Origin: an uncultured Verrucomicrobia subdivision 3 bacterium
Lineage (GTDB): Bacteria; Verrucomicrobiota; Verrucomicrobiia; Limisphaerales; UBA11358
Assembly: GCA_903850425.1 (NCBI GenBank)
Contig: CAINLR010000141.1
Location: 1-45,295 of the forward strand
Direction of reading: 5' to 3'
DNA length: 45,295 nucleotides
The notes under the pieces were generated by a model. That model was not told where the DNA came from. It saw only the letters and a program-made list of their open reading frames with translations, and made no database searches. Made by a program: the position numbers and the translations under genes. Every line of letters begins with the position of its first letter. Position 1 is the first letter of the stretch. Positions 28,146-45,295 of the stretch are shown piece by piece.

Positions 28146-28192
28146 GAAATGATAAGCGAAATGGGGACGCGCCCCACTTTGCGGTGAGGCGC

Positions 28193-28216
28193 GGCGACGA
28201 GCGGAACTTCGTCGCC
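28193..28216. other. Intercistronic hairpin between porin and reductase genes
   Basis: An 8-base perfect stem GGCGACGA/TCGTCGCC with an 8-base loop lies in the 78-base gap between the porin and diflavin reductase genes. A shorter GGGG-ACGCG-CCCC hairpin lies beside it at about 28164-28176. Neither has a T-tract, so they look more like RNA-stabilising or attenuating structures that would set different levels for the transport and enzyme halves than like full terminators. Confidence 0.4.
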
Positions 28217-28223
28217 ACCCAAA

Positions 28224-29702: not shown

Positions 29703-29732
29703 TGAGTTGGTTCAGTGCTGACGTGGGTTGGT

Positions 29733-30602
29733 TCAAACGGTATCCAAAACGGGTTTCACTAAATTGGTTTGCGTGGGCGGTGGTGTTTTCTGGGCAGGAA
29801 TGATTTTTTCGGACGCCAGCGGTTTGCGGTGCGCCCGCACTTCGAGAAATTCAATCAACTGTTCGCGCAGCGGGTAATAATCGGGATGCTCCAGCACGGC
29901 TTTGCGTTCGCGTGGACGCGGGAAATTCACTTCCATGATTTCACCGACTTCCGCTGCCGGTCCGTCCGTCATGCAAACGATCCGGTCGCTGAGGAAGAGC
30001 GCCTCGTCCACGTCGTGCGTGACCATTAGCGCGGTGATTTTATTTTTGCGCCAGAGTTCGATCAGCACCTGCTGCAATTCGTAACGCGTGAGCGAGTCGA
30101 GCATGCCGAACGGCTCATCGAGCAAAAGCATTTTCGGCTTGAGCGCAAAGGCCCGCGCGATGCCTACCCGCTGGCGCATGCCTTGCGAAAGTTCGGCGGG
30201 CTTTTTGTGCATCGCCTCACCGAGACCGACCACAGTGAGATAATATTCCACGATCTCGCGCCGCTCTTGTTTGCTCGCGGTGAAAAAAACCTGTTCCACG
30301 CCGAGCATCACATTTTCAAACGCGGTCATCCACGGCAGCAACGACGGCGATTGAAACACCACGCCGCGATCCGGACCGGCGCCGGAAAGTTCCTTGCCGG
30401 CAAGAATGATGCCGCCGTCGGAAATTTCGCTCAGCCCCGCGAGCATCGAAAGCACCGTGGATTTACCGCAGCCCGAATGTCCTATGAGCGTGATGAATTC
30501 GCCCTTTTGAATATTCAGATTGAAATTCTTGACGATGACCGCCTCGCCCTTCGGCGTCGGATAAATCTTGGCGAGGTTCGAAAGTTCGACGTAGTTGCTC
30601 AC
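29733..30602 (-). CDS. nrtD: Nitrate ABC transporter ATPase (NrtD-like)
   Basis: A 289-residue ABC ATPase on the cytoplasmic face of the nitrate importer. Walker [10 protein letters not shown] (about residues 42-50), Q-loop [13 protein letters not shown], signature [14 protein letters not shown], Walker [13 protein letters not shown] and switch His in VTHDVDEA are all intact. The product has no NrtA-like C-terminal domain. A C-terminal Pro/Lys tail of about 25 residues is unrecognised. The start overlaps the second ATPase gene by 4 bases. Confidence 0.9.
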
Positions 30603-31504
30603 GGCTTGACCTCCACGGATTCCTCTTTCAATTCACTCTTGCGAATCGGCGTTTTGCGCCAACCCGTCATGCTGCGCGGGATGTTCAAATCTTCCGGCTC
30701 GATGTCTGGTAAAATCAATTTGCGCGTGATGGCCGTGTGCCGGTCCTGCTTCGAGTTCAGCATGAACTCCACGATCTCGCGCCGGAGCTGTTTGAAATGC
30801 GGATCGTGATTGATGGACTTGCGATCGCGCGGACGCGGAATTTCAACCTTGAAAGACGGCCCGAGCGTCGCGCCAGGTCCGGCGGTGAGCGGAATGATGC
30901 GGTCCGCGAGATAAATTCCTTCGTCTGGATCGTTCGTAATGAGCACCACGGTTTTTTTATCCTCCGACCAGATGCGCGAAATCTCATCCTGCAAGGTCGC
31001 CCGCGTCAGCGCATCCAGCGCGGACAACGGCTCGTCGAGCAAAAGAATTTGCGGATCCATCGCCAACGCGCGCGCTACGGAAACGCGCTGCCGCATGCCG
31101 CCGGAAAGTTCGCCCGGTTTTTTATCGCGCGCCGGCGTGAGGTTCACCATCGCGATGTATTTTTCGACGTGCGCCTTTTTCTTGTCGGCCGACCAGTTTG
31201 GATTCACCGAATCCACGGCGAGCAAAATGTTTTCAAACACCGACAGCCACGGCAGGAGCGAATAGTTTTGGAAAACGATGCCACGATCCGGCCCCGGCGC
31301 GGTGATTTCCAGATCGTTTAACTTCATCGTGCCACCGCTGGGCTTGAGCAAACCGGCGATCAGCGAAATCAACGTCGTTTTGCCCGCGCCGGAAAAGCCG
31401 ACGATGGCGACGAACTCGCCCTTTTCGACGGACAGGTTGATGTCTTTCAACACCGACGCTGCGCCGAAATCTTTCGAGACGTCATTGAGTTCGAGATAAG
31501 ACAC
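30599..31504 (-). CDS. Second nitrate ABC transporter ATPase (NrtC/NrtD-type)
   Basis: A 301-residue paralogue of the downstream ATPase: Walker [11 protein letters not shown]-loop [12 protein letters not shown], signature [14 protein letters not shown] and Walker [13 protein letters not shown]. The switch-loop His is replaced: the sequence reads [15 protein letters not shown], with Asn where the other subunit has THD. The pair is therefore likely an asymmetric heterodimer with one weakened ATP site. Unlike cyanobacterial NrtC it lacks the C-terminal NrtA-like regulatory domain. It ends with a charged tail of about 35 residues. Confidence 0.9.
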
Positions 31505-31507
31505 GAT

Positions 31508-32293
31508 TCAGGCGGTTTTAAATTTTTTCTCCACCACGCTCATCAGCCGGTCGAGGATGAAGCCAACCACGCCAATCGTGACGATGCAAAGGATGATGTG
31601 TTCGTAGATGAGCGAATTATATTCCTGCCACAAAAAGCCGCCGACGCCCGGCTGACCGGTGAGCATTTCGGCGGCGACGATCACCAACCACGCGATGCCG
31701 AGGCTCAAACGAAAACCGGTGAACATATATGGCAGTGTCGCCGGGATCAGCACCTTGAAGAGCGTCTTGGTGCGCGACAGTTTCAGCACTTTCGCCACGT
31801 TCAAATAATCCTGCGGAATCGCGCGCACGCCGACTGCCGTGTTCATCACCGTCGGCCACATCGAACAAATGGCAATGGTGAACAACGCGCCCAATTCCGA
31901 AGCGTTTTTGCCGGCGCTCGTGAATAAAACCAAGCCGAGCGGCAGCCATGCCAGCGGCGACACGGGCCGCAACACTTGAATCAGCGGATCAAAGATTTTC
32001 GTGAACGTTTTGGACAGGCCAAGGAAAAATCCGATCGGCGTGCCAATGATCAGCGCGAGCGCATACCCCTTGGCCACGAGAATCAGCGAATACCAGGTGA
32101 ATCGCAAAATGCCCTGGTCCATCTCCCCGCGCTTGGCAAACGGCTCGACGATGTAAGGTTTGCTGACCTGCCACGTTTTTTCCGGCGTCGGCAAATCCTT
32201 CGCCCACGAGGCGCAGGAGATTTGCCACAGAACCAAAACAGCCGCCACGCCGATCAGCGGCAGCACGAGCCAGTCCAATTTGAACGACTTCAT
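31508..32293 (-). CDS. nrtB: Nitrate ABC transporter permease
   Basis: A 261-residue inner-membrane permease of the BPD type. N-terminal helix VLPLIGVAAVLVLWQISCAS, about six membrane segments, and the cytoplasmic EAA-type coupling loop around NVAKVLKLSRTKTLFKVLIP, then ATLPYMFTGFRLSLGIAWL. The periplasmic start includes TWQVSKPYIVEPFAKRGEMD, like NrtB/SsuC relatives. It lies 3 bases from both the binding-protein and ATPase genes. Confidence 0.93.
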   Translation of the reverse strand: MKSFKLDWLVLPLIGVAAVLVLWQISCASWAKDLPTPEKTWQVSKPYIVEPFAKRGEMDQGILRFTWYSLILVAKGYALALIIGTPIGFFLGLSKTFTKIFDPLIQVLRPVSPLAWLPLGLVLFTSAGKNASELGALFTIAICSMWPTVMNTAVGVRAIPQDYLNVAKVLKLSRTKTLFKVLIPATLPYMFTGFRLSLGIAWLVIVAAEMLTGQPGVGGFLWQEYNSLIYEHIILCIVTIGVVGFILDRLMSVVEKKFKTA

Positions 32294-32296
32294 CGC

Positions 32297-33580
32297 TTAA
32301 CCTTTCACGTTGTTCACGGCGAAACTCTTGGCGTAGGCTTCGAGATCACCTTTTGGATCAAACGCCACACCGTCAAATAAAGTCTCCGCATCGTGATTCG
32401 CGCCGCCGTGCGTGTAGCCGATTTCCTTCATCGCTTCCTCGTAAATGTCCGGGCGCATGACCTGTTTGGCGATGCCCTCGTAATCCGGCGCGCCTTTGAC
32501 CAAGCCCCAGCGGCGATATTGCGCGAGAAACCACTTGGCGTATTTGAGCTGCGGATAATTGCAGTTGCGGCCGCTGAAAATCATATAATTCGGATCTTCT
32601 TTCGTGCGGCCGTCGCCGTAATCGTAGTGGCCTTGCAAGCGGCCGAGAATCGTCGCCGGATCGCAGTTAATGTAGGTCGGCTTGCTCACGATCTGGCATT
32701 GCTCCGGGCGATTGTCCATGTTGTCGAGCCAGACGCTCGCTTCGTGCAACGCCTTGAGGACGGCTTTGACCGTCTTCGGATTTTTGTCGGAAAACTCTGC
32801 GAGGAATGCGCAAACTTTTTCGGGATGATCCTTCCACATGTCTTGTGTGGAAACTGAGGTGAAACCAATTTTGTCAGTGATGGCGCGGGCGTTCCACGGT
32901 TCGCCCACACAGAAACCATCCATCTTGCCGATCTTCATATTCGCCACCATCTGCGCGGGCGGAACGACGATGAGCGAAACGTCCTTGTCCGGATTGATCC
33001 CGCCGGCGCCGAGATAATAACGCATCCACATCGCGTGCGTGCCCGGCGGAAACGTCATCGCGAATGTCAGCGGCTCGCCGAGACCTTGGGCCTGTTTTAC
33101 AAAGGGAAGCAGCGCCTTCGGGTCGGCGCCAACTTTGCCTTTCAGTTCGTTCTTCAGGGAAATTGCCTGACCGTTTCGGCTCATCAGCCACGGAATGATC
33201 ATCGGTTTTTTCGGCGAACCGGCGAGGCCCATCGTGGAGGCGAGCGGCATGCCGAGCAACATGTGCGTGGCTTGAATAGTCCCGCTGGAAAGATTATCGC
33301 GGATGGCCGCCCAGTTCGCGCCTTTGGTCACGGTAGAGTCGATGCCGTATTTTTTGAACAGCCCTTTTTCGTGCGCGATCACGATGGGTGAACAATCCGT
33401 GAGCGCGATCATGCCGAAATTCAGTGCGGCGGTTTCCGGCGCGTCGCTGGCGTAAGCGGTGCCGAGCCAGCCTTTCGGCAGGCCGGCGAACAACGCGGTG
33501 AGCGTCGCCCCCTTGACGGTTTTGCGCAAAAAGCTGCGCCGGGAAAGTTCAGGCGTGGACGAGTTCGTTTGGGTTTTCAT
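32297..33580 (-). CDS. nrtA: Nitrate-binding protein, Tat-exported
   Basis: A 427-residue periplasmic nitrate/nitrite-binding protein of the NrtA/CmpA family. ATG 33580 is chosen because it places a twin-arginine signal near the start (SRRSFLRK with Arg14-Arg15, then a hydrophobic stretch to TAYASD). The frame is open 16 codons further. Conserved regions: LNFGMIALTDCSPIVIAHEK, KGANWAAIRDNLSSGTIQAT, HMLLGMPLASTMGL, FPPGTHAMWMRYYLGAGGIN and GFCVGEPWNARAI. Tat export implies folding in the cytoplasm first. Its first 32 bases overlap the 3' end of the NasS-like gene. Confidence 0.93.
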   Translation of the reverse strand: MKTQTNSSTPELSRRSFLRKTVKGATLTALFAGLPKGWLGTAYASDAPETAALNFGMIALTDCSPIVIAHEKGLFKKYGIDSTVTKGANWAAIRDNLSSGTIQATHMLLGMPLASTMGLAGSPKKPMIIPWLMSRNGQAISLKNELKGKVGADPKALLPFVKQAQGLGEPLTFAMTFPPGTHAMWMRYYLGAGGINPDKDVSLIVVPPAQMVANMKIGKMDGFCVGEPWNARAITDKIGFTSVSTQDMWKDHPEKVCAFLAEFSDKNPKTVKAVLKALHEASVWLDNMDNRPEQCQIVSKPTYINCDPATILGRLQGHYDYGDGRTKEDPNYMIFSGRNCNYPQLKYAKWFLAQYRRWGLVKGAPDYEGIAKQVMRPDIYEEAMKEIGYTHGGANHDAETLFDGVAFDPKGDLEAYAKSFAVNNVKG

Positions 33581-34634
33581 GTAAAGTTTGGGTTGCGGTT
33601 GCTGATTTAAAACGAGTGGCTTGTTCAAAAATGTCGGCGCGGAACACGCGGCGACTCAGGGAAAAATTCAATTCGGCCGGCGCCGGGCACAAACCGCTGG
33701 CGCGCACCAACTGCAAGGCCCAGGCGGCTTTTTCGCCGGACGGCTCATTCGCATCGTGGCGATGGAACACAAAAAAATCGTTTACGGCGCGCGTCACGCC
33801 GGTGCCGAAGTCACATTCGCCGTTCAGGCTGCGCTGCAAAATGTCCGCCGGCACGCCGACAAATTCCGGCTGGGCGAGCGTGGTCGCGATCTCCGCAGCA
33901 TTTTCCGGCTGACGGCAAAACTTACAGGCTTCAAGCAGCGCGGCGACCAGCGCCAAATGTTCGCCCTCGCGCTTCACGGCAAAATCACGCCGCACCATTA
34001 GAACTTTTTCCGGATGATTCGGATCGAGTTCGGCGCTCGCGGCCACGATCCAGCCGGCGCGCGCCCGCACGGCGACCGAATTCCACGGTTCGCCGCAGCA
34101 AAATCCGTCGAGGTTGCCCGCCTTTAAGTTCGCCGCCAGTTGCGGCGGTGGAACGATCACTAATCGCACGTCGCGCTCGGGATCGATGCCGTGCGAAGCC
34201 AGCCAGTGGCGCAACCAATGGCGATGGGATGAAAATGGAGCAACGACGCCGAAGGCAAAGGTCTTTTCGCCGCGCGACCTCTTGATTTCTGCGCGCAAGG
34301 TGTTGCCGTCGCGGACGCCGCGTTGCCACAGTTTGTGAGAAAGGGTGATGGCGTTGCCGTGGAGATTCAGCACGAGCGCGGTCAGGCAATCGCACGCCAC
34401 CGAGCCCAGCCCAAGCGTGGCTGCCAGCGGCATGGCAGCCAACGCATGCGCGGCGTCGAGTTCGCCGTGAACAACTTTATCCCGAACCGTGGCCCACCCA
34501 AGTTCGCGGCTCAAGTGGACATTTAATCCGAATTTACGGAATAGCCCCAGCTCCTGCGCCATCACCAGCGGCGCGCAATCGGTGAGCGGCACAAAGCCGA
34601 GGCGCAAGGGGCGCGGCGGCAGTTTTCCAGACAT
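33549..34634 (-). CDS. Cytoplasmic NrtA/NasS-like nitrate-sensing protein
   Basis: A 361-residue homologue of NrtA without any signal sequence. From ATG 34634 it reads MSGKLPPRPLRLGFVPLTDC and continues with the same ligand-site regions as NrtA (LGWATVRDKVVHGELDAAHA, LAAMPLAATLGLG, HGIDPERDVRLVIVPPPQL, LDGFCCGEPWNSVAV). The frame is open much further upstream, but that part crosses the LysR gene on the other strand and is not NrtA-like. Soluble NrtA-like proteins include NasS, which with NasT controls nitrate genes, and the C-terminal domain of NrtC. No nasT is visible here. I infer nitrate sensing in the cytoplasm, either of the ATPases or of transcription. It is first in the cluster. Confidence 0.8.
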   Translation of the reverse strand: MSGKLPPRPLRLGFVPLTDCAPLVMAQELGLFRKFGLNVHLSRELGWATVRDKVVHGELDAAHALAAMPLAATLGLGSVACDCLTALVLNLHGNAITLSHKLWQRGVRDGNTLRAEIKRSRGEKTFAFGVVAPFSSHRHWLRHWLASHGIDPERDVRLVIVPPPQLAANLKAGNLDGFCCGEPWNSVAVRARAGWIVAASAELDPNHPEKVLMVRRDFAVKREGEHLALVAALLEACKFCRQPENAAEIATTLAQPEFVGVPADILQRSLNGECDFGTGVTRAVNDFFVFHRHDANEPSGEKAAWALQLVRASGLCPAPAELNFSLSRRVFRADIFEQATRFKSATATQTLHENPNELVHA

Positions 34635-34722
34635 GTGATTGAGATTGTTCACTTCGAGCCACATTTTCACGGGCAGGCCAGCAATAGCCGTGACCATGCC
34701 ATTACCAGCTTGTGGCGCGATG

Positions 34723-34765
34723 AATGCTAAGTTTTGTTTGCATTGAAATGATGAAATCCATTCAT
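34723..34765. promoter_or_regulatory. Inverted repeats in the lysR / nitrate-cluster divergent region
   Basis: The 133-base divergent gap is AT-rich on the LysR side and holds two dyads. AATGC-12-GCATT lies at 34723-34744 and ATGAA-5-TTCAT at 34751-34765, the latter ending three bases before the lysR start. LysR regulators typically bind such interrupted dyads in the gap shared with their target operon, so these are candidate operator sites. Exact promoters were not identified. Confidence 0.4.
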
Positions 34766-34767
34766 AC

Positions 34768-35700
34768 ATGAAACCGCCGCTTGATAGCAGACAGCTCCGC
34801 GCCTTCACCGTGCTGGCGCGCACGGGCAGCTTTACCCAGACGGCGCGGGAGTTGCATCTGACGCAATCGGGCATCAGCCACTCCATGAAGGCACTGGAGG
34901 CGGAAACGGGCTGTCGCCTTTTGGACAGGCTGGGCAAGAAAATCGTCCTTACCCAGGCGGGCGAACAGCTGCTGCAGCACGCCACGAGAATTCTGGCAGA
35001 AATGGAAACGGCGCGCGACGCGCTGACTCAGCTCGGCAAATGGGGACGCGGCCGCCTGCGCCTCGGCGCGAGCACGACCGCGTGTCAGCATTTGATTCCG
35101 CAAGTGCTGCGCGAGTTCAAGGAAAGTTTTCCTGATCACGCCATCACGCTGGAGCCGGGCGACACCCCGGAACTGGTGAACGCGCTGCTTCATCACCGGG
35201 TTGACCTGGCATTAACGCTGGAAGTGGAGCGCGAGCCGCAACTGGAGTTTCATCCGCTGTTCACGGATGAACTGCATTTTCTCGTGGGCGCGCTCCATCC
35301 CTGGGCCCGGGCCGGACGCGTGGAACGGGCGGAGATCCCGCGGGAAAACCATATTCTCTACAGTAAACGGAGCGTCACCTTCAAATTGGTCGAGGAATAT
35401 TTTCGCCGCGAAAAGATGACCTTGAACACGGTGATCGAACTCGGCAGCGTCGAAGCCATCAAGGAATTGGTGAAGCTCGGCCTCGGCGTCAGCATCCTCG
35501 CGCCGTGGGTCGCGCGGCGGGAAATCGAGGAAGGCTCGCTCGTCGCGCTGCCGCTCGGCCGGCGGAAATTGACGCGGCGCTGGGGTTTGTTGCACTGGCG
35601 CGGCAAACGGCTGAATCTCGCGGAGGAAACTTTCATCGGCCTGTGCGAATCGGCCTGCGCGCCGTTACGGCTGCCACCGGCCAAGCCGGCGGAAAAATAG
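34768..35700 (+). CDS. LysR-type regulator of the nitrate cluster
   Basis: A 310-residue LysR-family activator. The N-terminal winged helix-turn-helix is clear (LRAFTVLARTGSFTQTAREL, HLTQSGISHSMKALEAETGC, RLLDRLGKKIVLTQAGE). The effector domain begins at RLRLGASTTACQHLIPQVLR, with two Rossmann-like lobes through GVSILAPWVARREIEEGSLV. The gene is divergent from the 13.5 kb nitrate cluster, the classic position of a LysR regulator and its target, as with cyanobacterial NtcB. The effector is unknown; nitrite, nitrate or a nitrogen-status signal are options. Its stop codon lies inside the first copy of a 17-base tandem repeat. Confidence 0.92.
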   Translation: MKPPLDSRQLRAFTVLARTGSFTQTARELHLTQSGISHSMKALEAETGCRLLDRLGKKIVLTQAGEQLLQHATRILAEMETARDALTQLGKWGRGRLRLGASTTACQHLIPQVLREFKESFPDHAITLEPGDTPELVNALLHHRVDLALTLEVEREPQLEFHPLFTDELHFLVGALHPWARAGRVERAEIPRENHILYSKRSVTFKLVEEYFRREKMTLNTVIELGSVEAIKELVKLGLGVSILAPWVARREIEEGSLVALPLGRRKLTRRWGLLHWRGKRLNLAEETFIGLCESACAPLRLPPAKPAEK

Positions 35701-35818: not shown

Positions 35819-36463
35819 ATGCAAACCAAATCGAACTCATATCACGTCGTCGCGCTGCGGAAACTTTCCGGCCTCGCGCTGGTGGCCATGCTGGCCTTCT
35901 CCGGTTGCACCACGGCGCAAATGCCGCAGTCCGCCGTGCAACTCGCGCCGGAAAAAACGCACCTGGAAATTGTTTCGTTGCGCGAAGGCGACATGCTGAA
36001 AATTTCGTTTCCGGGTTCCCCCAATCTGGACTCGGCCCAGCAAATCCGCCGCGATGGCAAGATCACTTTGCAACTGGTCGGGGATGTGGACGCCGCCGGC
36101 CTGACGCCGGATGAGCTGCAGCAAAAACTGATCAAATTGTATGCCTCGCAAATCACCACCAAGGAAATCACGGTGGTGTTGCAGACCTCCGCCTTCCCGG
36201 TGTTTGTGACGGGAGCCGTCGTGCGCCCCGGCAAAGTTCTTTCCGACCATCCGATCACGGCGTTGGAAGCCATCATGGAATCCGGCGGCTTTATTTATTC
36301 CACGGCCAACCTCAAGGCGGTCAAAGTCAGCCGCAACAACAACGGCGTGATGGAAAATTACACACTGAACTTGAAAGCGGTCCTGGAAGGCACCGACAAA
36401 AAGACCTTTTATCTCAAGCCTTCCGACATCGTGTTTGTGCCGGAACGCTTCGCGGTGTTCTAA
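35819..36463 (+). CDS. Polysaccharide export lipoprotein (Wza-like)
   Basis: A 214-residue outer-membrane lipoprotein of the polysaccharide biosynthesis/export family. Signal with lipobox LAFSGC. The poly_export domain follows (LREGDMLKISFPGSPNLDSA, IRRDGKITLQLVGDVDAAGL, TPDELQQKLIKLYASQI) and then one SLBB-type beta-grasp segment (FVTGAVVRPGKVLSDHPITA, LEAIMESGGF, FYLKPSDIVFVPER). It is shorter than E. coli Wza (about 380), as expected for the single-SLBB type. It converges with the PrsR-type gene (4-base overlap) and belongs with the polysaccharide-signalling module to its right. Confidence 0.87.
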   Translation: MQTKSNSYHVVALRKLSGLALVAMLAFSGCTTAQMPQSAVQLAPEKTHLEIVSLREGDMLKISFPGSPNLDSAQQIRRDGKITLQLVGDVDAAGLTPDELQQKLIKLYASQITTKEITVVLQTSAFPVFVTGAVVRPGKVLSDHPITALEAIMESGGFIYSTANLKAVKVSRNNNGVMENYTLNLKAVLEGTDKKTFYLKPSDIVFVPERFAVF

Positions 36464-37812
36464 CTCCGGACGATGCCCAGCTTGTCCATCAATTCATAGA
36501 GCGTCGGGCGACTCAAGCCCAGCTCCACGGCGGCCGGAGCAATCTTGCCGCCGTGTTTTTTTAACGCCTGCTGCACCATCTGACGTTCCACCGCTTCCCG
36601 CGCGTCCTTGAGCGTGACCACGTTGGCGCCCAGTCCGGACGGCTCCAATTCCAGATCGCGGGCGGTCACGCGCCGGCCATCGGCCATGATGACCGCGCGG
36701 CGAATGCAATTCTCCAGTTCGCGGACATTGCCCGGCCACGCGTGTTTGTTCAACGCGCGAATCGCATCCGGATCAAACGCGAGATTCGTCTTGTTCACCT
36801 GCGCGGCAAACCGGTTCAGGAAAAACTGCGCGAGCAGGCGGACGTCGTTCTCGCGTTCGCGCAACGGCGGCAACGTCAGCGACACCACGGCGAGCCGGTA
36901 AAACAGATCTTCGCGGAACGTGCCGGCCGCCATGACTTTTTTGAGATCCGCATTCGTGGCGGCGACCACGCGGGCGTTGATCGGGATTTCCTGCCGGCCG
37001 CCCACGCGCTCGATGGTTTGCTCCTGCAAAAACCGGAGCAGCTTCACCTGTAGCGGCAGTGGAATCTCCCCGATTTCGTCCAGGAACAGCGTGCCATCAT
37101 TGGCGGTTTCAATCCGGCCTTTGCGCTGCATGTGCGCGCCGGTAAACGAGCCTTTTTCATGCCCGAACAGTTCGCTCTCCAACAGCGTTTCGGGAATCGC
37201 ACTGCAATTGATCGCGATGAAGGGACCATTTTTGCGATTACTTTTCTGGTGGATGGCGCGCGCGGCCATCTCCTTGCCGGTGCCGCTTTCGCCCAGAATC
37301 AACACGGGCGCATCGGTGGTGGCCACCTTGCGGATGGCCTCAAAAATCGGGCGCATCGGCGCGCTCGTGCCCAACATTCCCTCGAACGAATCCGTATGCA
37401 CCAACTGTTGCATCGCGGCGTATTCCTTTTCCAGTTGCACCATTTGAAAGCAGCGCTTGAGCAGGAATTTCAATTCGTCCATTTCCACGGGCTTGGTAAA
37501 AAAGTCGTAGGCGCTGGCCCCGATGGCGCGCAGTGCATTCTGCTTTTCGCCCTGGCCGCTGATGATGATCACCTTGACCAGCCGGTCGAGCGCCATCAGC
37601 GCCGACAAGGTCGCGAGACCCTCCTCGGGATTGCCGGGATGCGGCGGCAAGCCCAGATCGAGCAGCACGACGGACGGCTGCGTCGTGCGGAACATTTCCA
37701 GCGCGCTGGGGCGATCCTCTGCGAGGGCAACGTCGTAGTCGGCCGCCAGCGCCCATTTCATCTGGGTGCGGATTTCTTCGTCGTCGTCAACAATCAACAA
37801 TTTTGGCTTCAT
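36460..37812 (-). CDS. prsR: PrsR-type sigma-54 response regulator
   Basis: A 450-residue NtrC-like regulator: receiver (KPKLLIVDDDEEIRTQMKWA, phospho-acceptor Asp52 in LLDLGLPP, FFTKPVEMDEL), AAA+ domain (Walker A GESGTGKE, Walker B TLFLDEIGEIPL, arginine-rich FREDLFYRLAVV) and a C-terminal Fis-type helix-turn-helix. The sigma-54 contact loop reads GSFTGA rather than GAFTGA, so one residue differs. The receiver strongly resembles PEP-CTERM-box response regulators (PrsR), which control exopolysaccharide genes. ATG 37812 is chosen at the receiver start; the frame runs open to 38433 but that part is not related. No adjacent PrsK sensor kinase is present in the window. Confidence 0.9.
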   Translation of the reverse strand: MKPKLLIVDDDEEIRTQMKWALAADYDVALAEDRPSALEMFRTTQPSVVLLDLGLPPHPGNPEEGLATLSALMALDRLVKVIIISGQGEKQNALRAIGASAYDFFTKPVEMDELKFLLKRCFQMVQLEKEYAAMQQLVHTDSFEGMLGTSAPMRPIFEAIRKVATTDAPVLILGESGTGKEMAARAIHQKSNRKNGPFIAINCSAIPETLLESELFGHEKGSFTGAHMQRKGRIETANDGTLFLDEIGEIPLPLQVKLLRFLQEQTIERVGGRQEIPINARVVAATNADLKKVMAAGTFREDLFYRLAVVSLTLPPLRERENDVRLLAQFFLNRFAAQVNKTNLAFDPDAIRALNKHAWPGNVRELENCIRRAVIMADGRRVTARDLELEPSGLGANVVTLKDAREAVERQMVQQALKKHGGKIAPAAVELGLSRPTLYELMDKLGIVRS

Positions 37813-38056: not shown

Positions 38057-39853
38057 GTGGCGCGTAATGTGTTGAACACTCCTGCCCCCCAACCCGAACA
38101 CCGGACCGCATTGCGGCTGGAAGCCGCGTGCGAATTTTCCGCCGTGCGCGCGGCGATCGCCCAGGTGCAACGCTGGCTCGCGGAAAAAAAACTACCCGAG
38201 GCCGACCTCGGCGCGTGGGAACTGGCGCTGATGGAAGGCGCCAACAATGCCGTCAAATATGCGCCGCCCGCCGCGCGCGGACTCCCCGTGGTCATTGAAA
38301 TTTCTGAGGGCGAACGCGACGTGGAAGCGCGCATCACCGACCACACCGCCGGTTTCGATTGGCCGGCCGAGGTCAAACTCCCCGAGGATGAATCCGAAAG
38401 CGGGCGCGGTTTGTTCCTGATGCGATCGCTCACGGATTACGCCGCTTATTTTCGGCATCCCGGCGAAAACATTCTGGTGCTGCGCCGCGCGCACACCGGC
38501 AGCAGCAACCTGGTTGCACCCGCCGCCGGCCCGTTGCCGCAGCGGCTGGCCGAGGCCGAAGGCGCGTTGAACGACATGGCCGCCGAACTGGCTACGAGCT
38601 ACGAGAGCCTGGTGGCGATGTTTCGTTACAGCGCGGAACTCGGCACGAACACGGACGTCAAAGATTTTTCGCAGCGCCTGCTCCGCGACTTGGTGCAGAT
38701 CGCCGAAGCCGACGGGGCGTTGTTGCGGCTGGTTTCGGCCGACGGCAAGAAGTTGGAAACGATTTTCACGTTGCCGGAGTCAACCCGCACGCCCATCAAA
38801 CCCGTGAATCTGGCCGACGATTTTCTGAGTTCGGTGGAGGTGCGCGCCGCGCGCAGCCGGCAGGACATCTGGTTTGATCCCAAGGAACCGCTCGACAAAA
38901 ACGATCCGCTGCGCGCCGTCATGCCCGTGGGCAATGGCATCTGCCACGCGTTTTATGTGGCGGATCAACTGGTCGGCACGGCCGCGCTTGGCCGGCTGGC
39001 GGCGGACAAACCGTTCACCGCCGCGCAACTGAACCTGCTGCACACGTTCACTGATTTTCTCGCGATTCAAATAGTGAATGCGCGGCTGCTGGACGAGCGC
39101 ACGGCCACGCGCGTCACGCGGCGCGAACTGGAAATCGCGGCGGACATCCAGCATTCGCTGCTGCCGGCCACCCTGCCAAACTGCCCGCCGTTCGCGCTCG
39201 CCGCCGTGTGCCAGAGCGCGCTGCAAGTCGGCGGCGATTTTTACGACGTCATCGCGGCGGGGGACGGCGCGGTGCTGCTGGTGATCGCCGACGTGATGGG
39301 CAAGGGCGTGCCGGCGGCGATGTTCGCGGCGGTGTTGCGCAGCACGATCCGCTCGATGCCGCAATTGTTCGCGCAGCCCGGCGCGCTGCTGGCGGCGGCG
39401 AACACCATTTTGTTTCCCGATCTTTCCCGCGTGGACATGTTCGTCACAGCCAAGCTGGTTTATGTGGATGCGCGGCGCGGCAAGCTGATTTCGGCGAGCG
39501 CGGGACATTGTCCGCTGCTGGTGTGGCGGCCCGGCAACGCGGCGGCGGACCCGCCGCCCGAACCGGGTTTCCCGCTGGGCATCGAACCGGACGAATCCTA
39601 TCCCCAGACCGTCACCGAATTGCCCCCCGGCGGCGCGGCGCTGCTTTACACTGACGGCGTGAGCGAAGCGCGCGATGCCACGGGCGAAATGCTGGGTGAG
39701 AAAAAATTACAGCATCTGCTGGCCGACGTCGCAGCGGCCACGAGCGATGCGCTGGTGGCAAAAAACTTCCTGCTCGAACGGCTCGCGGCCGAACGCGGCA
39801 CCGCGCCGCTGCTGGATGATCAAACTTTCATTTTTATCCGACACCTCGCATGA
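38057..39853 (+). CDS. RsbW-like / GAF / SpoIIE (PP2C) partner-switch protein
   Basis: A 598-residue three-part signalling protein. Residues 15-150 are a HATPase_c_2 anti-sigma-type kinase domain: N-box ELALMEGANNAVKYA, a degenerate G1 (ITDHTAGFDW instead of D-x-G-x-G) and G2 ESGRGLFLMRSLTDY. Residues about 190-360 are GAF-like (EADGALLRLVSADGKKLETI, VGNGICHAFYVADQLVGTAA). Residues about 375-598 are a SpoIIE/RsbU phosphatase: LQVGGDFYDVIAA, VIADVMGKGVPAAMFAAVL, SAGHCPLLVW and the final metal-binding DDQTFIFI. It should both phosphorylate and dephosphorylate a STAS protein, most likely the two-STAS fusion nearby. GTG 38057 is used as start; no better ATG precedes the N-box. Confidence 0.9.
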   Translation: MARNVLNTPAPQPEHRTALRLEAACEFSAVRAAIAQVQRWLAEKKLPEADLGAWELALMEGANNAVKYAPPAARGLPVVIEISEGERDVEARITDHTAGFDWPAEVKLPEDESESGRGLFLMRSLTDYAAYFRHPGENILVLRRAHTGSSNLVAPAAGPLPQRLAEAEGALNDMAAELATSYESLVAMFRYSAELGTNTDVKDFSQRLLRDLVQIAEADGALLRLVSADGKKLETIFTLPESTRTPIKPVNLADDFLSSVEVRAARSRQDIWFDPKEPLDKNDPLRAVMPVGNGICHAFYVADQLVGTAALGRLAADKPFTAAQLNLLHTFTDFLAIQIVNARLLDERTATRVTRRELEIAADIQHSLLPATLPNCPPFALAAVCQSALQVGGDFYDVIAAGDGAVLLVIADVMGKGVPAAMFAAVLRSTIRSMPQLFAQPGALLAAANTILFPDLSRVDMFVTAKLVYVDARRGKLISASAGHCPLLVWRPGNAAADPPPEPGFPLGIEPDESYPQTVTELPPGGAALLYTDGVSEARDATGEMLGEKKLQHLLADVAAATSDALVAKNFLLERLAAERGTAPLLDDQTFIFIRHLA

Positions 39854-40242
39854 ACCCGACTCCCGCGCCCAAAAAAATCCTCATCGCTGACGATGAACTA
39901 TACATGTTACGCCTGCTGGAACTGACCTTGAAAAAAGGCGGCTTTGAAGTGATTTCCTGCCGCGACGGCCAGGAGGCGCTCGCGCTGGCCGTGAGCACCC
40001 TGCCGCAATTGATCGTGCTGGACGTGATGATGCCCGGCCTCGACGGCCTCGGCGCGCTGCGGCAGTTGAAGGAGAATCCCGCGACGCGGGCCATTCCCGT
40101 CATCGTGCTCTCAGCCAAGGGCCACGCGCTCACCCGCGTCGAAGCCGAGGTCGCCGGCACCGCGCTGTTTTTAGCAAAACCGTTCAGCCCAAACCAACTG
40201 CTCGGCGACGTGCAGAAAATCATCGGGCCGAATCCATCATGA
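39850..40242 (+). CDS. CheY-like single-domain response regulator
   Basis: A 130-residue receiver: acidic pair DDE in KILIADDELYMLRLLELT, phospho-acceptor Asp in IVLDVMMPGLDGLGALRQL, the conserved Ser in IVLSAKGHA and Lys in LAKPFSPNQL. There is no output domain, so it acts through protein contact. It overlaps the phosphatase gene by 4 bases (ATGA), so the two should be translated together and it probably modulates that phosphatase. Confidence 0.94.
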   Translation: MNPTPAPKKILIADDELYMLRLLELTLKKGGFEVISCRDGQEALALAVSTLPQLIVLDVMMPGLDGLGALRQLKENPATRAIPVIVLSAKGHALTRVEAEVAGTALFLAKPFSPNQLLGDVQKIIGPNPS

Positions 40243-40392: not shown

Positions 40393-40409
40393 TTGGCGTT
40401 CGGGCTGCT
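40393..40409 (+). promoter_or_regulatory. Weak candidate sigma-54 promoter
   Basis: TTGGCGTTCGGGCTGCT matches the sigma-54 pattern with exact GG-10-GC spacing (TTGGC at -24, CTGCT at -12) but misses the ACG core. The implied start point would be only about 6 bases before the glycosyltransferase start, giving an almost leaderless transcript. Interesting because a sigma-54 activator of the PrsR type is encoded nearby. Confidence 0.22.
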
Positions 40410-40425: not shown

Positions 40426-41862
40426 ATGCCAGCCAACTTGCCAACGGCCCCGACCAAGCGCGCCCCCATCGCGATTCTCGGCGTGCCGTTCGACAGCGTC
40501 AACATTGACGAGGCGCTGGACCTCATCACCGGCATGGTGGCGTCGGGCCGCCCGCATTACGCGGCGACGGTGGATGTCAGTTTCCTGGTGGCGGCGACGG
40601 AAGACGTGGAGTTGCGGCGGATTTTGTTCGATGCGCACCTTGTGCTGGCGGGTGAAAAGCCCGTGGTCTGGGCGTCCAAGATTCTGGGCAATGAAGTGCC
40701 GCAATGTATCTCCGCGCTCCGGCTGACGCCGCCGCTGCTCGCGCTGGCGGAGCAAAAAAGCTGGCGCGTCTTTTTTCTCGGCGGCACTGCGGCCAGCGTG
40801 GACGCGGTGGCGGAAAAAGTCCGCGCCAAATATCCCAAGCTGGCGGTGGTGGGCGCGTATGCCCCGCCCGACCAGCCCGTGCTGGAAATGGATCACGCCG
40901 ACCTGCTGCGCCGGCTGCACGCCGCGAAACCAGACCTGTTGTTCGTGGCGTTCGGTTGTCCGAAGGAGGAGAAATGGATCAGCATGAATTTCCGCGAGGC
41001 CGGCGTGCCATTCACCCTCGGCATCGGCGCGACGCTGGACGTGCTGGCCGGCACGCGGTCGTTGAAGCCAGCCGCATCCCAATCGAATGCGAAACAAACC
41101 TGGAATTTCAGCCGCGCCGTTTTGCGGCAGGCCTGGCAATTGCGGTCCCGCAAAGTCACCCCAGCCGTGGGCGATGGCCTGATTTTTCCGGATCCCTTCG
41201 GCAATCTGATCATCCGTGTGCCCGCGCGGCTCGGCGCGGCGGAAGTGCAGGGGTGCCGCCCCGAATGGCTGCGCGCGGTGGAAGGCGGCCAGGTGATGTT
41301 CGATCTGTCCGACACGGTTTTTGTGGACAGCACGGGCATCGGCCTATTGATCCGGTTGCGCAAACAAGCCCGCGAGCTGGGCCACCAGTTTATTCTGGTC
41401 GCGCCCCGGCCGCCGATTGCGGCGGCGTTGCGGCTGATGAAGCTGGACGAATTCTTCACCATCCAAGCGAGCCTGGCCGGCGCGCGGATTTTGATGGAAG
41501 GCGCGGCGGGTGCGCCGACGGTAACCAGCGGCGTGCTGCAAGAGGAACTGCAAATCCGCTGGGTCGGCGAAATCACCGCGCTCAACGTGGTGGAACTGGG
41601 GGCCTACACGGAATCGGAGCTGTCGCAGGTGTCGCCGGGGATGTCGGTGGTGATTGATCTGGCACGCGTCACCTTCGTGGATAGCACGGGCATCGGCCTG
41701 ATGCTGCGCTTCAAAAAAAATCTGAAACGGCGCGACGTGGCGTTGAAGTTCATCAATGTTTCCGGCTCGGTGCTGAATGTCTTCCGGCACACACGGCTGG
41801 ACGAATACCTGCTCGGCAACAATAAGCAAGCGCCGACCCGCGCCAAGGACGGTCCGGTTTGA
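40426..41862 (+). CDS. WecG/TagA-type glycosyltransferase fused to two STAS domains
   Basis: A 478-residue fusion. Residues 12-210 follow the WecB/TagA/CpsF fold (AILGVPFDSVNIDEALDLIT, RVFFLGGTAASVDAVAEKVR, PDLLFVAFGCPKEEKWISMN, LGIGATLDVLAGT). Residues 250-360 and 370-465 are STAS domains, each with an intact phospho-site motif (VFVDSTGIG at Ser302 and TFVDSTGIG at Ser420). Compared with remembered family members, three active-site positions differ: TPNVDF is TVDVSF (Asp50), LCDGTP is LAGEKP (Gly76-Glu77) and CPKQEKW is CPKEEKW (Glu181). The usual RAPxWMQRxGLEW segment after the fold is also gone. ATG 40426 starts just before the fold; an ATG at 40393 overlaps a promoter-like sequence. I infer a regulatory or altered-substrate protein in polysaccharide synthesis, switched by STAS phosphorylation. 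Confidence 0.88.
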   Translation: MPANLPTAPTKRAPIAILGVPFDSVNIDEALDLITGMVASGRPHYAATVDVSFLVAATEDVELRRILFDAHLVLAGEKPVVWASKILGNEVPQCISALRLTPPLLALAEQKSWRVFFLGGTAASVDAVAEKVRAKYPKLAVVGAYAPPDQPVLEMDHADLLRRLHAAKPDLLFVAFGCPKEEKWISMNFREAGVPFTLGIGATLDVLAGTRSLKPAASQSNAKQTWNFSRAVLRQAWQLRSRKVTPAVGDGLIFPDPFGNLIIRVPARLGAAEVQGCRPEWLRAVEGGQVMFDLSDTVFVDSTGIGLLIRLRKQARELGHQFILVAPRPPIAAALRLMKLDEFFTIQASLAGARILMEGAAGAPTVTSGVLQEELQIRWVGEITALNVVELGAYTESELSQVSPGMSVVIDLARVTFVDSTGIGLMLRFKKNLKRRDVALKFINVSGSVLNVFRHTRLDEYLLGNNKQAPTRAKDGPV

Positions 41863-42067: not shown

Positions 42068-45000
42068 TTACGGTTTGTGCAGGCGATAGAAGCGATTGGT
42101 CGCTCCGCTGGCGGAATTGGTCACGCTATACTTCAGCGAGGTGACGATGGGTTCATTGGTGGTGAACGTCCAGTTCGTCTGCGACAGGGACGGCTGGGCT
42201 TCCAGTTTGTAGCCACCCGCCCACGTCGGCCAGGAGAGCCGCGCCTGATTGCCGGGCAGGGCCGTGATGTTGAGCGCCGGGCTACAATCACCGCCATAGA
42301 CCGTCAGCTTATAGGGCCCGTAGCTACCCGCCAAGACGTTGACCACGAAGGTGGCGTTGGAAGCGACGTTGAACGAGAAGGAGCGGGTTGCACTGCCGTA
42401 ACCTGCCCCGACCACAAAGCCGGCATCCGCCAGATAACTGGCACACCGGTCAACATTCGTCGGATTGTAACTGCCGGAATAAGCCGCCACCACCATGCCG
42501 AAGGAGGTGTTGGTATTCTCCAGCGTCACGGTAATGCAGGCGTCGGTCCGACCATTGTGGAAGGTGAAGTTATCCGCTGGATACGATCCACCGGCGATCC
42601 CGGGACAGGCCTTGGCCACGCCACAGACGCTGGCCACGCTGTTGGGATTTACATAGCCGTTTTGGAACGGCGTGCTCGGACCCGTTGCCGTGCTGAAGGA
42701 AATATTGGGACAGAGGTCGCACTGGCCACCACCGTCGCCGCAGGCCACCGGGTAGAGGAACAGCGACCAGTTGCGCAGCGTGCCCAGGCTGCCGCCAAAG
42801 CCGTCCGTCATCTGCAACCGCCAGTTGCCGTTGGGCGTCGCGTTGCCGATGTAGTTGGCCAGGTTGCCTTGCGGGCGGAACGTGCCCACAAACGGCGGCG
42901 ACCCGGCGGCAATGGCGGTGGCCGCCGCATCATCAAAAGTCGTGCGGTTGGCATCCGCGCTGCCGGAGCCGAAGTTGGCCCCGCCACCGGTGGCGGCCAC
43001 CAGCGGCACCGTGGTGCCATCCGGCGCGATCAAGGACAGGCTCAAGTCCGAATCAATGGGATGCGTGAGCCACAGCGACACCGCCACTTTTTTCAGCATC
43101 GAGCCAAACCCGGACACGACGTTGGTCGAAAGCGCCGTGCCCACATCCGGAATCGCGGTGGCGACATTATTATCATAGCGCAACGGCGTCACCGCCGTGC
43201 TGCCGGTAGGCACCACATAATTCATGGTGAATGAGCCCAGGCTCGAATTCACGGTCAGTTGCAGACTGATATCCGTGCCGCACACGAAACTCGGGAGCGT
43301 GGAAATTTGGAACGGGGTCACGTTGGTCCCCTTGCCGCCGCCGGCAATATTCGCATAAGTCGAAGCGGGCTGGCTGATGAAGACCCCGGGCGTGGCCGCC
43401 GACAGGGAGGCGTTGATGCCGGTCATCGGCGTGCCCGTCTGGTTGGTGATGACCAAGTTGAGGCTGTTGCACTCATTGGGATCAATCGAGTGGCTGCCAT
43501 CGCCGGAAGTGACGGCGACACTCGCCACCGCGCCGGGCAGAGACGTCAGGGTCAACACCACATCGTTACCCGTGCCACCGATGTAGGAAATGGTGAACTT
43601 GTAGCCGCCGGTCGTGAGGGTCGCGCCTTCCGCCAGGCCGCTGAAGATGCCGCTGCAGGCCTCCGCCGCGTCATTGTTGAGGATGGTGAATTTCTGCCCG
43701 ATCGTCGCGGGCGTGGTGAACGCGGGAACCACCGTCAGCGCGGCGCTGGCCAGCGTGGCGGTGCCAGTGACATTCAACTGGTCATAAGCGCTCCCCGGAG
43801 CGGGTCCGGTCAACTCGACGGTCAGGTTGCCGGTGGCACCGAAGGTCACATTGCTGCTATTGAGGATGCCGGGGCTGTTGCCCGGGGCAATGCTGCCATT
43901 GGCCGTGATCGCGCCAACCGTGCCGGTGCCGCCGAGCGTGGCACCGCCATCAATTAGGACGGGGATGAGTGGTTGGGAACCGTTGACCACAAGTTTGCCG
44001 CCGGTGATTTCAGTAAGGCCGGCAGTGTAAGTGCTGTTCCCATTCATGGTGAAAGTTCCGCTGCCGGTTTTGCCAACCGTCCAGCCTGGCGCATAGCCGG
44101 TGCCGGTAAAGGAACCATCAAACTGGCTGGTGCCATTGTTCAAACCAATATAAATCCAGCCGCCGATGCCAAAGTTGACCGTGCCGGTGCCCCGCAGGGT
44201 GTTCATATAGGTGTTGAAAATTGAGAAATCAAACGTCCCGCCGCCGTTGACCAGAACATCGGCGGTGTTGACGGTTTGCGCCGAGGCGGCCAGCCGCGCC
44301 GTGGCCGCCGAGTTGATCACCAGATTGCCGGGCACGGCGATGTTACCGCCCGACTTGTTCAAGACCAACTGGCCGCTGCTGACCGTGGTGGTCCCGACAT
44401 AGGTGTTGGCCGCCGCGCCGGAGAAACGGTTGGTGCTGCCAACGGACGTGAGGTTCCCGATGCCGCTGATGGGACCGACGATGTCGAACATGCCGGGGGA
44501 ACTAAAATTGTTGATGGTGGCATTGCCCGCCAAAACCACCGGGCCATACCACGAACAAGGATTTTGCGCGGTGAAGGTGGTGCCCGCCGCGAGCGTCACC
44601 GACTCATTGGTAATCGAGCATGAAAACAGGAAGAGTTCGCCGCTATTCGTCACGGTGGTGCCTCCACTCGTGGAACCCAGCGCCCACGGCGTCTCGGCGG
44701 TCACCGTCAAACCGCTGACCGTAAGCGGGCCGGTGAAGGAATTGCTGCCCGTCAAATTGACAAAGGCACCGGTGGTCGCCCCGCTGACAACTTTGAACCC
44801 GCTGCCATTGTCGCTCACTTTGGCGGGAATCTGCAGGTCCCGGACGACCGCGCCATTATCCACGGTGATGGTGTTGCCATACATTTTGATATTCCCGCTG
44901 ATGATGGGCGAGACGCTGGCCGAGGCCGTGACATAGATATCGCCGGTCATCTGGAGTTGCGCCGTGCCGGTGGTGATGGCCCCGGCATTCAAAGTCACCA

Positions 45001-45295
45001 AGCCGACCGTGCCCGCGCCACCCAGGGTCGTGCCGCTATTGACGGTCACCGAGCTTTGCGGCTGCACCCCATTGATGATCAAACCGCCGCTGTTAATCGT
45101 GGTATTGCCCGTATAGGAATTGTTACCGCTCAACGTGATGGTGCCCGAACCTTCTTTCTGCAAGTCGTTGCCGCCGGAGATTAGACCGGTGAAGGTGGAT
45201 GAACTGTTGCCGTAACCCAGCACCAAGTAACCGCCGCTCAGACTCACATTGCCACCGCCACTCAGCGCATCAATCCCTTCATACGCAGCCGCAAT
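42068..45295 (-). CDS. Giant secreted protein: autotransporter-type repeats plus P-like domain (N-terminus off window)
   Basis: At least 1075 residues are open to the window edge, with no start visible. The N-terminal part is a beta-helix of autotransporter passenger repeats (KEGSGTITLSGNNSYTGNTT, KTGSGTFTMNGNSTYTAGLT, each followed by INSG/ITGG-type turns). A segment around SIAPGNSPGILNSSNVTFGA closes the helix. After that come an unrecognised Cys-containing beta domain, a proprotein-convertase P-like domain (KVAVSLWLTHPIDSDLSLSL, LIAPDGTTVPLV, GNWRLQMTDGFGGSLGTLRN, then WSLFLYP), a Cys-rich region and the C-terminal module seen on other exported proteins here (GYKLEAQPSLSQTNWTFT ... NRFYRLHKP). 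No beta-barrel translocator is present. Likely a cell-surface or secreted adhesin- or matrix-type protein. Confidence 0.9.
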   Translation of the reverse strand: MAAAYEGIDALSGGGNVSLSGGYLVLGYGNSSSTFTGLISGGNDLQKEGSGTITLSGNNSYTGNTTINSGGLIINGVQPQSSVTVNSGTTLGGAGTVGLVTLNAGAITTGTAQLQMTGDIYVTASASVSPIISGNIKMYGNTITVDNGAVVRDLQIPAKVSDNGSGFKVVSGATTGAFVNLTGSNSFTGPLTVSGLTVTAETPWALGSTSGGTTVTNSGELFLFSCSITNESVTLAAGTTFTAQNPCSWYGPVVLAGNATINNFSSPGMFDIVGPISGIGNLTSVGSTNRFSGAAANTYVGTTTVSSGQLVLNKSGGNIAVPGNLVINSAATARLAASAQTVNTADVLVNGGGTFDFSIFNTYMNTLRGTGTVNFGIGGWIYIGLNNGTSQFDGSFTGTGYAPGWTVGKTGSGTFTMNGNSTYTAGLTEITGGKLVVNGSQPLIPVLIDGGATLGGTGTVGAITANGSIAPGNSPGILNSSNVTFGATGNLTVELTGPAPGSAYDQLNVTGTATLASAALTVVPAFTTPATIGQKFTILNNDAAEACSGIFSGLAEGATLTTGGYKFTISYIGGTGNDVVLTLTSLPGAVASVAVTSGDGSHSIDPNECNSLNLVITNQTGTPMTGINASLSAATPGVFISQPASTYANIAGGGKGTNVTPFQISTLPSFVCGTDISLQLTVNSSLGSFTMNYVVPTGSTAVTPLRYDNNVATAIPDVGTALSTNVVSGFGSMLKKVAVSLWLTHPIDSDLSLSLIAPDGTTVPLVAATGGGANFGSGSADANRTTFDDAAATAIAAGSPPFVGTFRPQGNLANYIGNATPNGNWRLQMTDGFGGSLGTLRNWSLFLYPVACGDGGGQCDLCPNISFSTATGPSTPFQNGYVNPNSVASVCGVAKACPGIAGGSYPADNFTFHNGRTDACITVTLENTNTSFGMVVAAYSGSYNPTNVDRCASYLADAGFVVGAGYGSATRSFSFNVASNATFVVNVLAGSYGPYKLTVYGGDCSPALNITALPGNQARLSWPTWAGGYKLEAQPSLSQTNWTFTTNEPIVTSLKYSVTNSASGATNRFYRLHKP

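Follow-up and report, generated by a model that had tools for sequence, protein, structure and literature searches.

In a stretch of 45,295 nucleotides from an uncultured Verrucomicrobia subdivision 3 bacterium (contig CAINLR010000141.1 of assembly GCA_903850425.1, hereafter the window), one gene, P0001, encodes a protein of 478 residues in which a WecG/TagA-type glycosyltransferase (GT) fold is followed by two STAS domains. We propose, with a probability of roughly 70%, that this protein is a pseudo-glycosyltransferase serving as the effector of a partner-switching module, and the best reading of its relatives is that partner switching acts on WecG-STAS-STAS proteins generally. The proposal builds on the architecture, the pattern of residue loss and its single origin, synteny, co-inheritance with a kinase/phosphatase gene (P0002) and purifying selection, all of which were computed.

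Architecture and active-site residues of the fusion

Pfam assigned to the fusion a Glyco_tran_WecG match of 127.1 bits (residues 70-219) and a STAS match of 96.0 bits in two stretches, and the motif DSTG, with a phosphorylatable serine in DS[TS]G, was found twice (Ser302 and Ser420). The AlphaFold model of the entire chain had a mean predicted local distance difference score (pLDDT) of 91.9 and a predicted TM-score (pTM) of 0.90. In a Foldseek search, the GT part matched TarA/TagA crystal structures at ranks 1 to 14, with TM-scores by target of 0.90-0.96, and RsbV/SpoIIAA-type STAS structures ranked below them. A TTG codon upstream, at 40393, is a possible alternative start of the reading frame. 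An earlier interpretation made from the letters of this DNA (the sequence-only reading) had described two STAS domains with DSTG sites fused to a WecG/TagA-type fold, and Pfam, AlphaFold, Foldseek and the alignment described below all confirmed it.

The GT-STAS-STAS architecture recurs in related genomes, and therefore the fusion is no accident of assembly. It was present in 22 of 59 whole genomes searched (the window's own, 35 of the same genus and 23 of the same order). A search across Verrucomicrobiota, which had been suggested as a check when the fusion was noticed, also recovered it repeatedly: from a pattern scan of named genomes, the best 80 of 137 relatives were compared, which with the window gives 81 members. 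By their record titles, these relatives belong to Verrucomicrobiota taxa, many of them subdivision 3/Limisphaerales, with two rows carrying no phylum. Of 387 genomes drawn from the phylum, 53 were matched at E ≤ 1e-60, a count that includes plain WecG proteins and matches ending before the second STAS domain. A comparison with plasmids gave 182 matching records, none of them over 80% of the query; in the five matches listed, only the GT part is covered.

For the comparison of residues, the window and the 80 loci were aligned with TagA. In TagA, Asp65 is the proposed base (0.052 for Asp65Ala versus 1.5 μM/min), Thr37 is thought to orient the donor sugar, and Asn39 and Arg83 are close to the docked acceptor; the C-terminal appendage (Arg214, Arg221) is required for activity and membrane binding, so that TagA without it is inactive and B. 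subtilis TagA without it is mostly soluble (PMC6493773). The 81 members fell into 68 intact, 12 lost and one partial (L077). The intact members keep Thr37, Asn39, Asp65, Arg83, Glu168 and the full 28-column appendage. In the 12 lost members, the window's among them, Asn39, Asp65 and Arg83 are gone and 5 to 10 of the 28 appendage columns are left. The residues in the window are Gly76 for Asp65, Asp50 for Asn39 and Cys94 for Arg83; its linker fills 10 of the 28 columns with none of the three appendage arginines (Arg214, Arg221 region) in the alignment, and helices 246-251 and 254-261, seen in a model of the intact member L067, are absent from its model.

At the position of Asp65 the lost members have Glu (8), Gly (3) or a gap (1). 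The gap belongs to L075, in which Asp65 and Arg83 were both lost through an internal deletion, and L065 has an Arg aligned at Arg221. With the catalytic residues, the acceptor residues and the appendage lost, the window protein is, judged from its sequence, unlikely to be an active enzyme. Thus the proposal of a glycosyltransferase holds for the family domain and fold of WecB/TagA/CpsF proteins, and fails for the enzyme, since Asp65, Asn39, Arg83 and the appendage are missing from the window protein. Sequencing or assembly error was rejected as the source of the loss, which is common to 12 members that come from different records and form one clade. On the donor side, Thr37 and Glu168 are kept in 12/12 lost members, Gln167 in 10/12 (Glu in the window) and Asp191 in 10/12. 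The partial member keeps Asn39, Asp65 and Arg83, and has Leu at Thr37 and 11 appendage columns. L077 (2377-3846) and L075 (448-1755) are possible intermediates of enzyme loss.

A tree was built from 46 of the 81 members, namely all 31 members of at least 46% identity and 15 sampled more distant ones, with the diagnostic columns omitted. The 12 lost members formed a single clade (support 98/92), to which the partial L077 is sister (100/95). The appendage seems to have been lost before the active-site residues. In the assembly with prefix PLHK01, a lost copy (L064) occurs together with an intact one (L072), which makes duplication likely. The ratio of nonsynonymous to synonymous substitution (dN/dS, Nei-Gojobori method, NG86) in the GT domain ranged from 0.06 to 0.22 over six pairs of lost members and from 0.04 to 0.06 over four pairs of intact ones, and that of the STAS domains was 0.03-0.30 over all ten pairs. 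Seven near intact members (21 pairs) share a mean GT identity of 0.87 and the 12 lost ones (66 pairs) one of 0.69; for STAS1 the two means are 0.65 and 0.73, and for STAS2 0.72 and 0.73. This contrast is only suggestive because the intact and lost groups differ in depth. From these sequence comparisons, constraint on the GT domain of the lost clade looks relaxed, yet still there.

Gene neighbourhoods and co-inheritance with the kinase/phosphatase

P0002 carries both kinase and PP2C phosphatase motifs, which look intact; two GAF models on the protein straddle their cut-offs. The presence of HATPase and SpoIIE domains in one neighbouring chain had been noticed before, and was upheld by Pfam domains and motifs. 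A stand-alone receiver (P0003), unmentioned in the sequence-only reading, lies beside the fusion across a gap of 183 bases, and a promoter/terminator scan returned no terminator-like site on the + strand between the two genes. The yield of that scan was near chance (1 vs 0.9; 13 vs 9.3).

The loci of intact and lost members differ in their neighbours. Denominators follow the available sequence, since 8 of the 12 lost members do not have full 6-kb flanks on both sides. A GT4-type glycosyltransferase gene lies directly downstream (at least 300 bases of sequence, start within 50 bases) in 60 of 62 testable intact members, the exceptions being L120 and L137, versus 0/12 lost ones. Just upstream, a SpoIIE kinase/phosphatase gene was found in 6/9 testable lost members versus 1/56 intact (L067), and a receiver close upstream in 9/11 lost (that of L064 inside a hybrid kinase) versus 1/66 intact (again L067). 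When the window is left out, the lost counts become 0/11, 5/8 and 8/10, respectively. Within 6 kb upstream, a hybrid-type histidine kinase was present in 4/12 lost members (L061, L064, L066 and L069), which do not include the window; a histidine kinase of some kind was found at up to 6 kb in 5/68 intact members, whose flank lengths vary. Two further intact members have related genes at a distance: a HATPase-SpoIIE gene 5.9 kb downstream in L127 and a HATPase-like frame 4.4 kb upstream in L117.

Of the intact loci, 36 have 6 kb of sequence to either side; SLBB/Poly_export genes occurred in 22 of these, AAA ATPase genes in 11 and Wzy-like genes in 10, and a GH26 gene was seen near L046. L067 and L046 denote one locus, at which hybrid kinases come first, followed by a lone STAS, HATPase-GAF-SpoIIE, a receiver, the intact fusion, GT4 and exopolysaccharide (EPS)-type genes; L067 is the link between the intact-type and the lost-type neighbourhoods. 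A polysaccharide-locus setting is true for the intact relatives, and the window has one Wza-like gene, which is not a conserved neighbour. The connection with polysaccharide synthesis that was first proposed for the window gene is well backed in the parent family by its GT4 and SLBB/Poly_export neighbours; an enzymatic role of this kind is not supported for the window protein, whose catalytic and acceptor residues are lost.

A lone STAS gene (about 100 residues) often adjoins the HATPase-GAF-SpoIIE gene in relatives (e.g. G003, G005, G014, G015, G040, G049 and G051), and in L067 and L081 it lies 2449 and 2220 bases upstream of the fusion. The STAS search of the window's own genome (G000) found no lone STAS at the window locus, and the fused STAS domains may have replaced it there. 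Of the five STAS matches in that genome, only the two fused ones lie on the window contig. For HATPase_c_2, two matches in this genome score clearly above the others, at 72.6 and 66.9 bits against 36.5 for the third, and both have STAS domains next to them. One is that of P0002; the other is on contig C15, accompanied by a separate lone STAS and a REC-SpoIIE protein. At the C15 locus (L058 5013-9997), genes for REC-SpoIIE, an RsbW-like HATPase, the lone STAS and a large protein resembling CheA stand in a row as a second partner-switch set; its REC-SpoIIE protein was matched in just 2 of 59 related genomes, too few to be informative as a comparison. A CheA-like kinase (Hpt, H-kinase_dim, HATPase, CheW) resembling the one on C15 lies directly 3' of the pseudo-glycosyltransferase gene at L037 (7391-9562).

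Co-inheritance was determined over the 59 genomes, with P0002 scored as present at E ≤ 1e-60. It was matched in 22 of them (in G054 only from residue 249 on). Nineteen genomes have both the fusion and P0002 and 34 have neither (Fisher p 1.4e-9, uncorrected for relatedness), and in many genomes with both, the two lie on different contigs. Within the genus alone, 15 genomes have both, two the fusion only, none P0002 only and 19 neither. PrsR, another neighbour in the window, showed no association with the fusion in the 59 genomes (both 6, fusion only 16, PrsR only 7, neither 30; p 0.52), being present in 6/22 genomes with the fusion and 7/37 without it. An RpoB tree could be made for 40 genomes, 19 of the 59 being left out (13 without an RpoB match and 6 with short matches; 10 of the 19 have the fusion). 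On this tree the fusion and P0002 traits change 10 and 12 times and agree in 36/40 genomes. When independent traits were simulated at rates giving about the observed number of changes, 36 agreements were reached in at most 5e-5 of draws, and pairs taken over all branches of the best tree differed the same way in 7-9 of 10, the opposite way in none and not at all in 1-3. Judged by counts, the association is strong; once relatedness is considered, its support is moderate. Random genomic association in relatives, which would have spoken against the proposed link, is thus not what was found, and the view of P0002 as the natural writer and eraser of STAS phosphorylation gains support, as a predicted action, from adjacency, motifs and co-inheritance.

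Other genes of the window

Coordinates of the fusion, its parts and its neighbours are collected in Table 1.

Table 1. Positions of the fusion gene, its domains and neighbouring genes in the window
Feature	Position	Strand	Basis
Wza-like Poly_export/SLBB protein	35819..36463	+	
PrsR, PEP-CTERM-box response regulator, divergent, non-conserved neighbour	36460..37812	-	TIGR02915, 618 bits
P0002, RsbW-type HATPase_c_2 + GAF + SpoIIE phosphatase, single chain, 598 aa, GTG start	38057..39853	+	Pfam
P0003, stand-alone response-regulator receiver domain, ATGA overlap of 4 bases with the SpoIIE gene	39850..40242	+	
P0001, WecG/TagA-fold (putative pseudo-glycosyltransferase)-STAS-STAS protein, 478 aa	40426..41862	+	translation, Pfam, AlphaFold, Foldseek
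WecG/TagA domain, aa 14-212; donor-side Thr48, Glu182, Asp205 kept, catalytic/acceptor residues lost	40465..41061	+	
Gly76 codon, site of TagA catalytic Asp65 (Asp in 68/68 intact members)	40651..40653	+	
Linker between WecG/TagA and STAS domains, one remaining helix (aa 220-239)	41062..41199	+	
STAS domain 1, DSTG with Ser302 (codon 41329-41331)	41200..41484	+	Pfam match
STAS domain 2, DSTG with Ser420 (codon 41683-41685)	41548..41811	+	Pfam match

The Wza-type gene and PrsR had been taken as a link to polysaccharide synthesis. This did not stand: in none of the 11 further lost members was a Poly_export/SLBB gene found at up to 6 kb (flank lengths vary), and in the nearest relative, whose fusion is 81% identical, the SLBB gene is absent within 6 kb and PrsR sits on a different contig. 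With PrsR unrelated to the fusion in its distribution as well, both neighbours look incidental. Downstream, the window ends within a gene at 42068-45295 (L033 12068-16822) for a large protein that carries PATR repeats and a P-proprotein domain; this gene and the next three have homologues in the nearest relative, L034.

Positions 22328-34985 hold genes for a molybdopterin oxidoreductase, a NIR_SIR reductase, a flavodoxin-type reductase, an Alginate_exp porin, ABC transporter parts and two NMT1_2 binding proteins, a cluster that presumably belongs to nitrate assimilation. At 5502-6947 lies a RecD2-like protein with HHH, SH3 and UvrD_C_2 domains; its HHH and SH3 are separated by only some 100 residues, in an interval where the main ATPase domain of RecD2-like proteins is expected. 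A scan for sigma-54-like patterns gave 98 matches against a mean of 79, and 98 was reached in 3 of 100 shuffles; the one Rfam match was the tRNA. In the WecG family, a search of the own genome found only the window gene and a plain WecG of 254 residues on contig C106, which has Asp65, Arg83 and the appendage, and Val at Asn39. This plain WecG lies about 2 kb from an exosortase (G000:C106:220475-223866), and the genome has six exosortase matches.

Proposed mechanism, alternatives and known systems

The ancestor of the family would have been an intact WecG/TagA-type transferase with two phosphorylatable STAS domains at its C-terminus, followed by a GT gene in polysaccharide-type operons. The HATPase-GAF-SpoIIE protein, often with a receiver and sometimes with a hybrid histidine kinase, would set the phosphorylation of the STAS serines and thereby switch the transferase. 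By analogy to SypE/SypA (PMC10120452), the kinase domain would phosphorylate these serines and the SpoIIE domain dephosphorylate them, with the receiver as the likely input. STAS state would gate the WecG-type enzyme of the parent family, a control point like that proposed for HfiA-HfsJ (PMC3900383). In the lineage of the window, one copy probably came to sit behind a receiver and mostly behind the kinase/phosphatase. The appendage would have been lost first, followed by the base and the residues on the acceptor side, while the fold, the donor-side residues and both STAS sites stayed under selection. If the enzyme is indeed dead, its output has to be by binding, and the window protein most likely works in this way now: STAS phosphorylation, perhaps together with a nucleotide sugar bound in the former donor pocket, would decide which partner is held. 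Candidate partners are the kinase, another WecG-type enzyme or another polysaccharide component.

Several observations weigh against this proposal. No biochemistry was found for any family member, and the records of relatives are, by their titles, mostly metagenome-assembled genomes. Six of the 59 genomes break the association, three with the fusion only (G002, G016, G043) and three with P0002 only (G041, G048, G057). At slower simulation rates, which give fewer changes, the fraction of draws reaching 36 agreements was 0.0075 and 0.13. Support in the RpoB tree is poor: only three independent pairs lie on well-supported branches, too few for significance, and the pair count and the simulated null both use this same tree. 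Among the lost members, 3/9 testable ones (L064, L069, L073) lack a SpoIIE gene immediately upstream, and the receiver is missing there in L063 and L073. The partial L077 has neither kinase, receiver nor GT4 near it, and its genome, identified as G002 by a contig match, has no P0002 match at the threshold used. On the donor side, the tyrosine that stacks against uracil in TagA (Tyr137) is replaced by Pro in 68/68 intact and 10/12 lost members, and Thr37 and Glu168 may have been retained for structure, so that donor binding is uncertain.

A possible, though clearly less probable, alternative is that the pseudo-glycosyltransferase is a dominant-negative decoy that forms mixed dimers with an active WecG-type enzyme, here the WecG of contig C106, and is released by STAS phosphorylation. 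Off the membrane, TagA assembles into inactive dimers (PMC6493773); in the window lineage the membrane-binding parts are gone and the fold is retained, and the separate WecG of G000 has the active-site features named above. HfsJ of Caulobacter, a member of the WecG/TagA family, is moreover proposed to be inhibited by HfiA in a way that needs C-terminal residues of HfsJ (PMC3900383). However, the C106 WecG and the GT part of the window protein share just 32% identity, which makes mixed dimers doubtful.

A more tentative reading takes the window protein as a nucleotide-sugar sensor, derived from a dead enzyme, that reports the supply of uridine diphosphate (UDP)-sugar into the STAS switch, its intact relatives being phosphorylation-gated glycosyltransferases of the undecaprenyl pathway. 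The retained donor-side residues suggest such sensing, and the substitution at Tyr137 and the possible structural role of Thr37 and Glu168 make the donor binding that it needs uncertain. We regard it as unlikely that the STAS part alone matters, with the GT domain a relic being lost and the protein a tandem STAS antagonist of an anti-sigma-type kinase. Higher STAS1 and lower GT identity in the lost than in the near intact members, and the internal deletion in the GT domain of L075, would agree with this; the GT dN/dS of the six lost pairs, Thr37 and Glu168 in all 12 lost members, and the TagA-like fold predicted for the window's GT domain do not.

The sequence-only reading, a working polysaccharide glycosyltransferase switched by STAS phosphorylation, has become very improbable for the window. 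The Pfam and fold match to WecG/TagA, the EPS-type operons of intact relatives and the adjoining kinase/phosphatase speak for it, but Asp65, Asn39, Arg83 and the appendage, kept in 68/68 intact members, are gone in the window and 11 relatives, TagA with the appendage deleted is inactive (PMC6493773), and a GT4 gene follows none of the 12 lost members. A chance neighbourhood of functionally unlinked genes, which the absence of the kinase/phosphatase from just upstream in 55/56 testable intact loci might suggest, is the least credible, given the co-inheritance (19/3/3/34 of 59, p 1.4e-9), the lack of any such association for PrsR and the upstream kinase/phosphatase of 6/9 testable lost members.

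The module of the proposed pseudo-glycosyltransferase has the kinase, phosphatase and STAS domain types of RsbU/RsbW/RsbV partner switching. It differs in that kinase and phosphatase are in one chain, STAS is on an enzyme fold and no sigma-factor output was identified. Another similar system is SypE/SypA of Vibrio fischeri, in which, likewise, a serine kinase and a phosphatase in one chain act on a STAS serine with a receiver involved; this pair controls polysaccharide-dependent biofilm below transcription, and the direct target of SypA is reported as unknown (PMC10120452). SypA is a lone STAS protein, whereas the window STAS is fused twice to a WecG-fold domain, and the SypE chain has REC where the window chain has GAF, the window receiver being a separate protein (PMC10120452). 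In Caulobacter, HfiA-HfsJ offers post-translational control of a gate-keeping enzyme of the WecG/TagA family, required for holdfast, through C-terminal residues; inhibition acts near the C-terminus of HfsJ, the side that bears STAS here, but the controller is a separate small protein and the available part of the paper mentions no STAS (PMC3900383).

A STAS domain is also fused to a glycosyltransferase in all4160 of Anabaena (PMC8256260), which is named among the genes on which heterocyst envelope polysaccharide depends (PMC8256260, PMC4390870). Its STAS is N-terminal according to the review (PMC8256260), whereas that of the window protein is C-terminal. TagA/TarA of Thermoanaerobacter italicus (WecB/TagA/CpsF, GT26) has the same fold over about 195 residues, with a TM-score by target up to 0.96, and shares Thr37, Glu168 and Asp191 with the window protein, which lacks Asp65, Asn39, Arg83 and the appendage and has two STAS domains added. 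Thus STAS-glycosyltransferase fusion (all4160, PMC8256260) and partner switching of polysaccharide are already known. In the open-licence literature, which was covered in part, we found neither a WecG-type protein fused to STAS nor a GT26 protein without catalytic activity described, and no undecaprenyl-pathway glycosyltransferase gated by phosphorylation of its own STAS domains.

STAS domains built into a WecG-type gate-keeping enzyme are a ready target for the question that SypA poses, and the step from STAS to enzyme becomes testable with one purified protein and its kinase. The clade of the window adds an ordered series to this: intact, appendage lost, active site lost. Apparently it shows an enzyme on its way to a signalling role, with its switch domains and a co-inherited kinase preserved.

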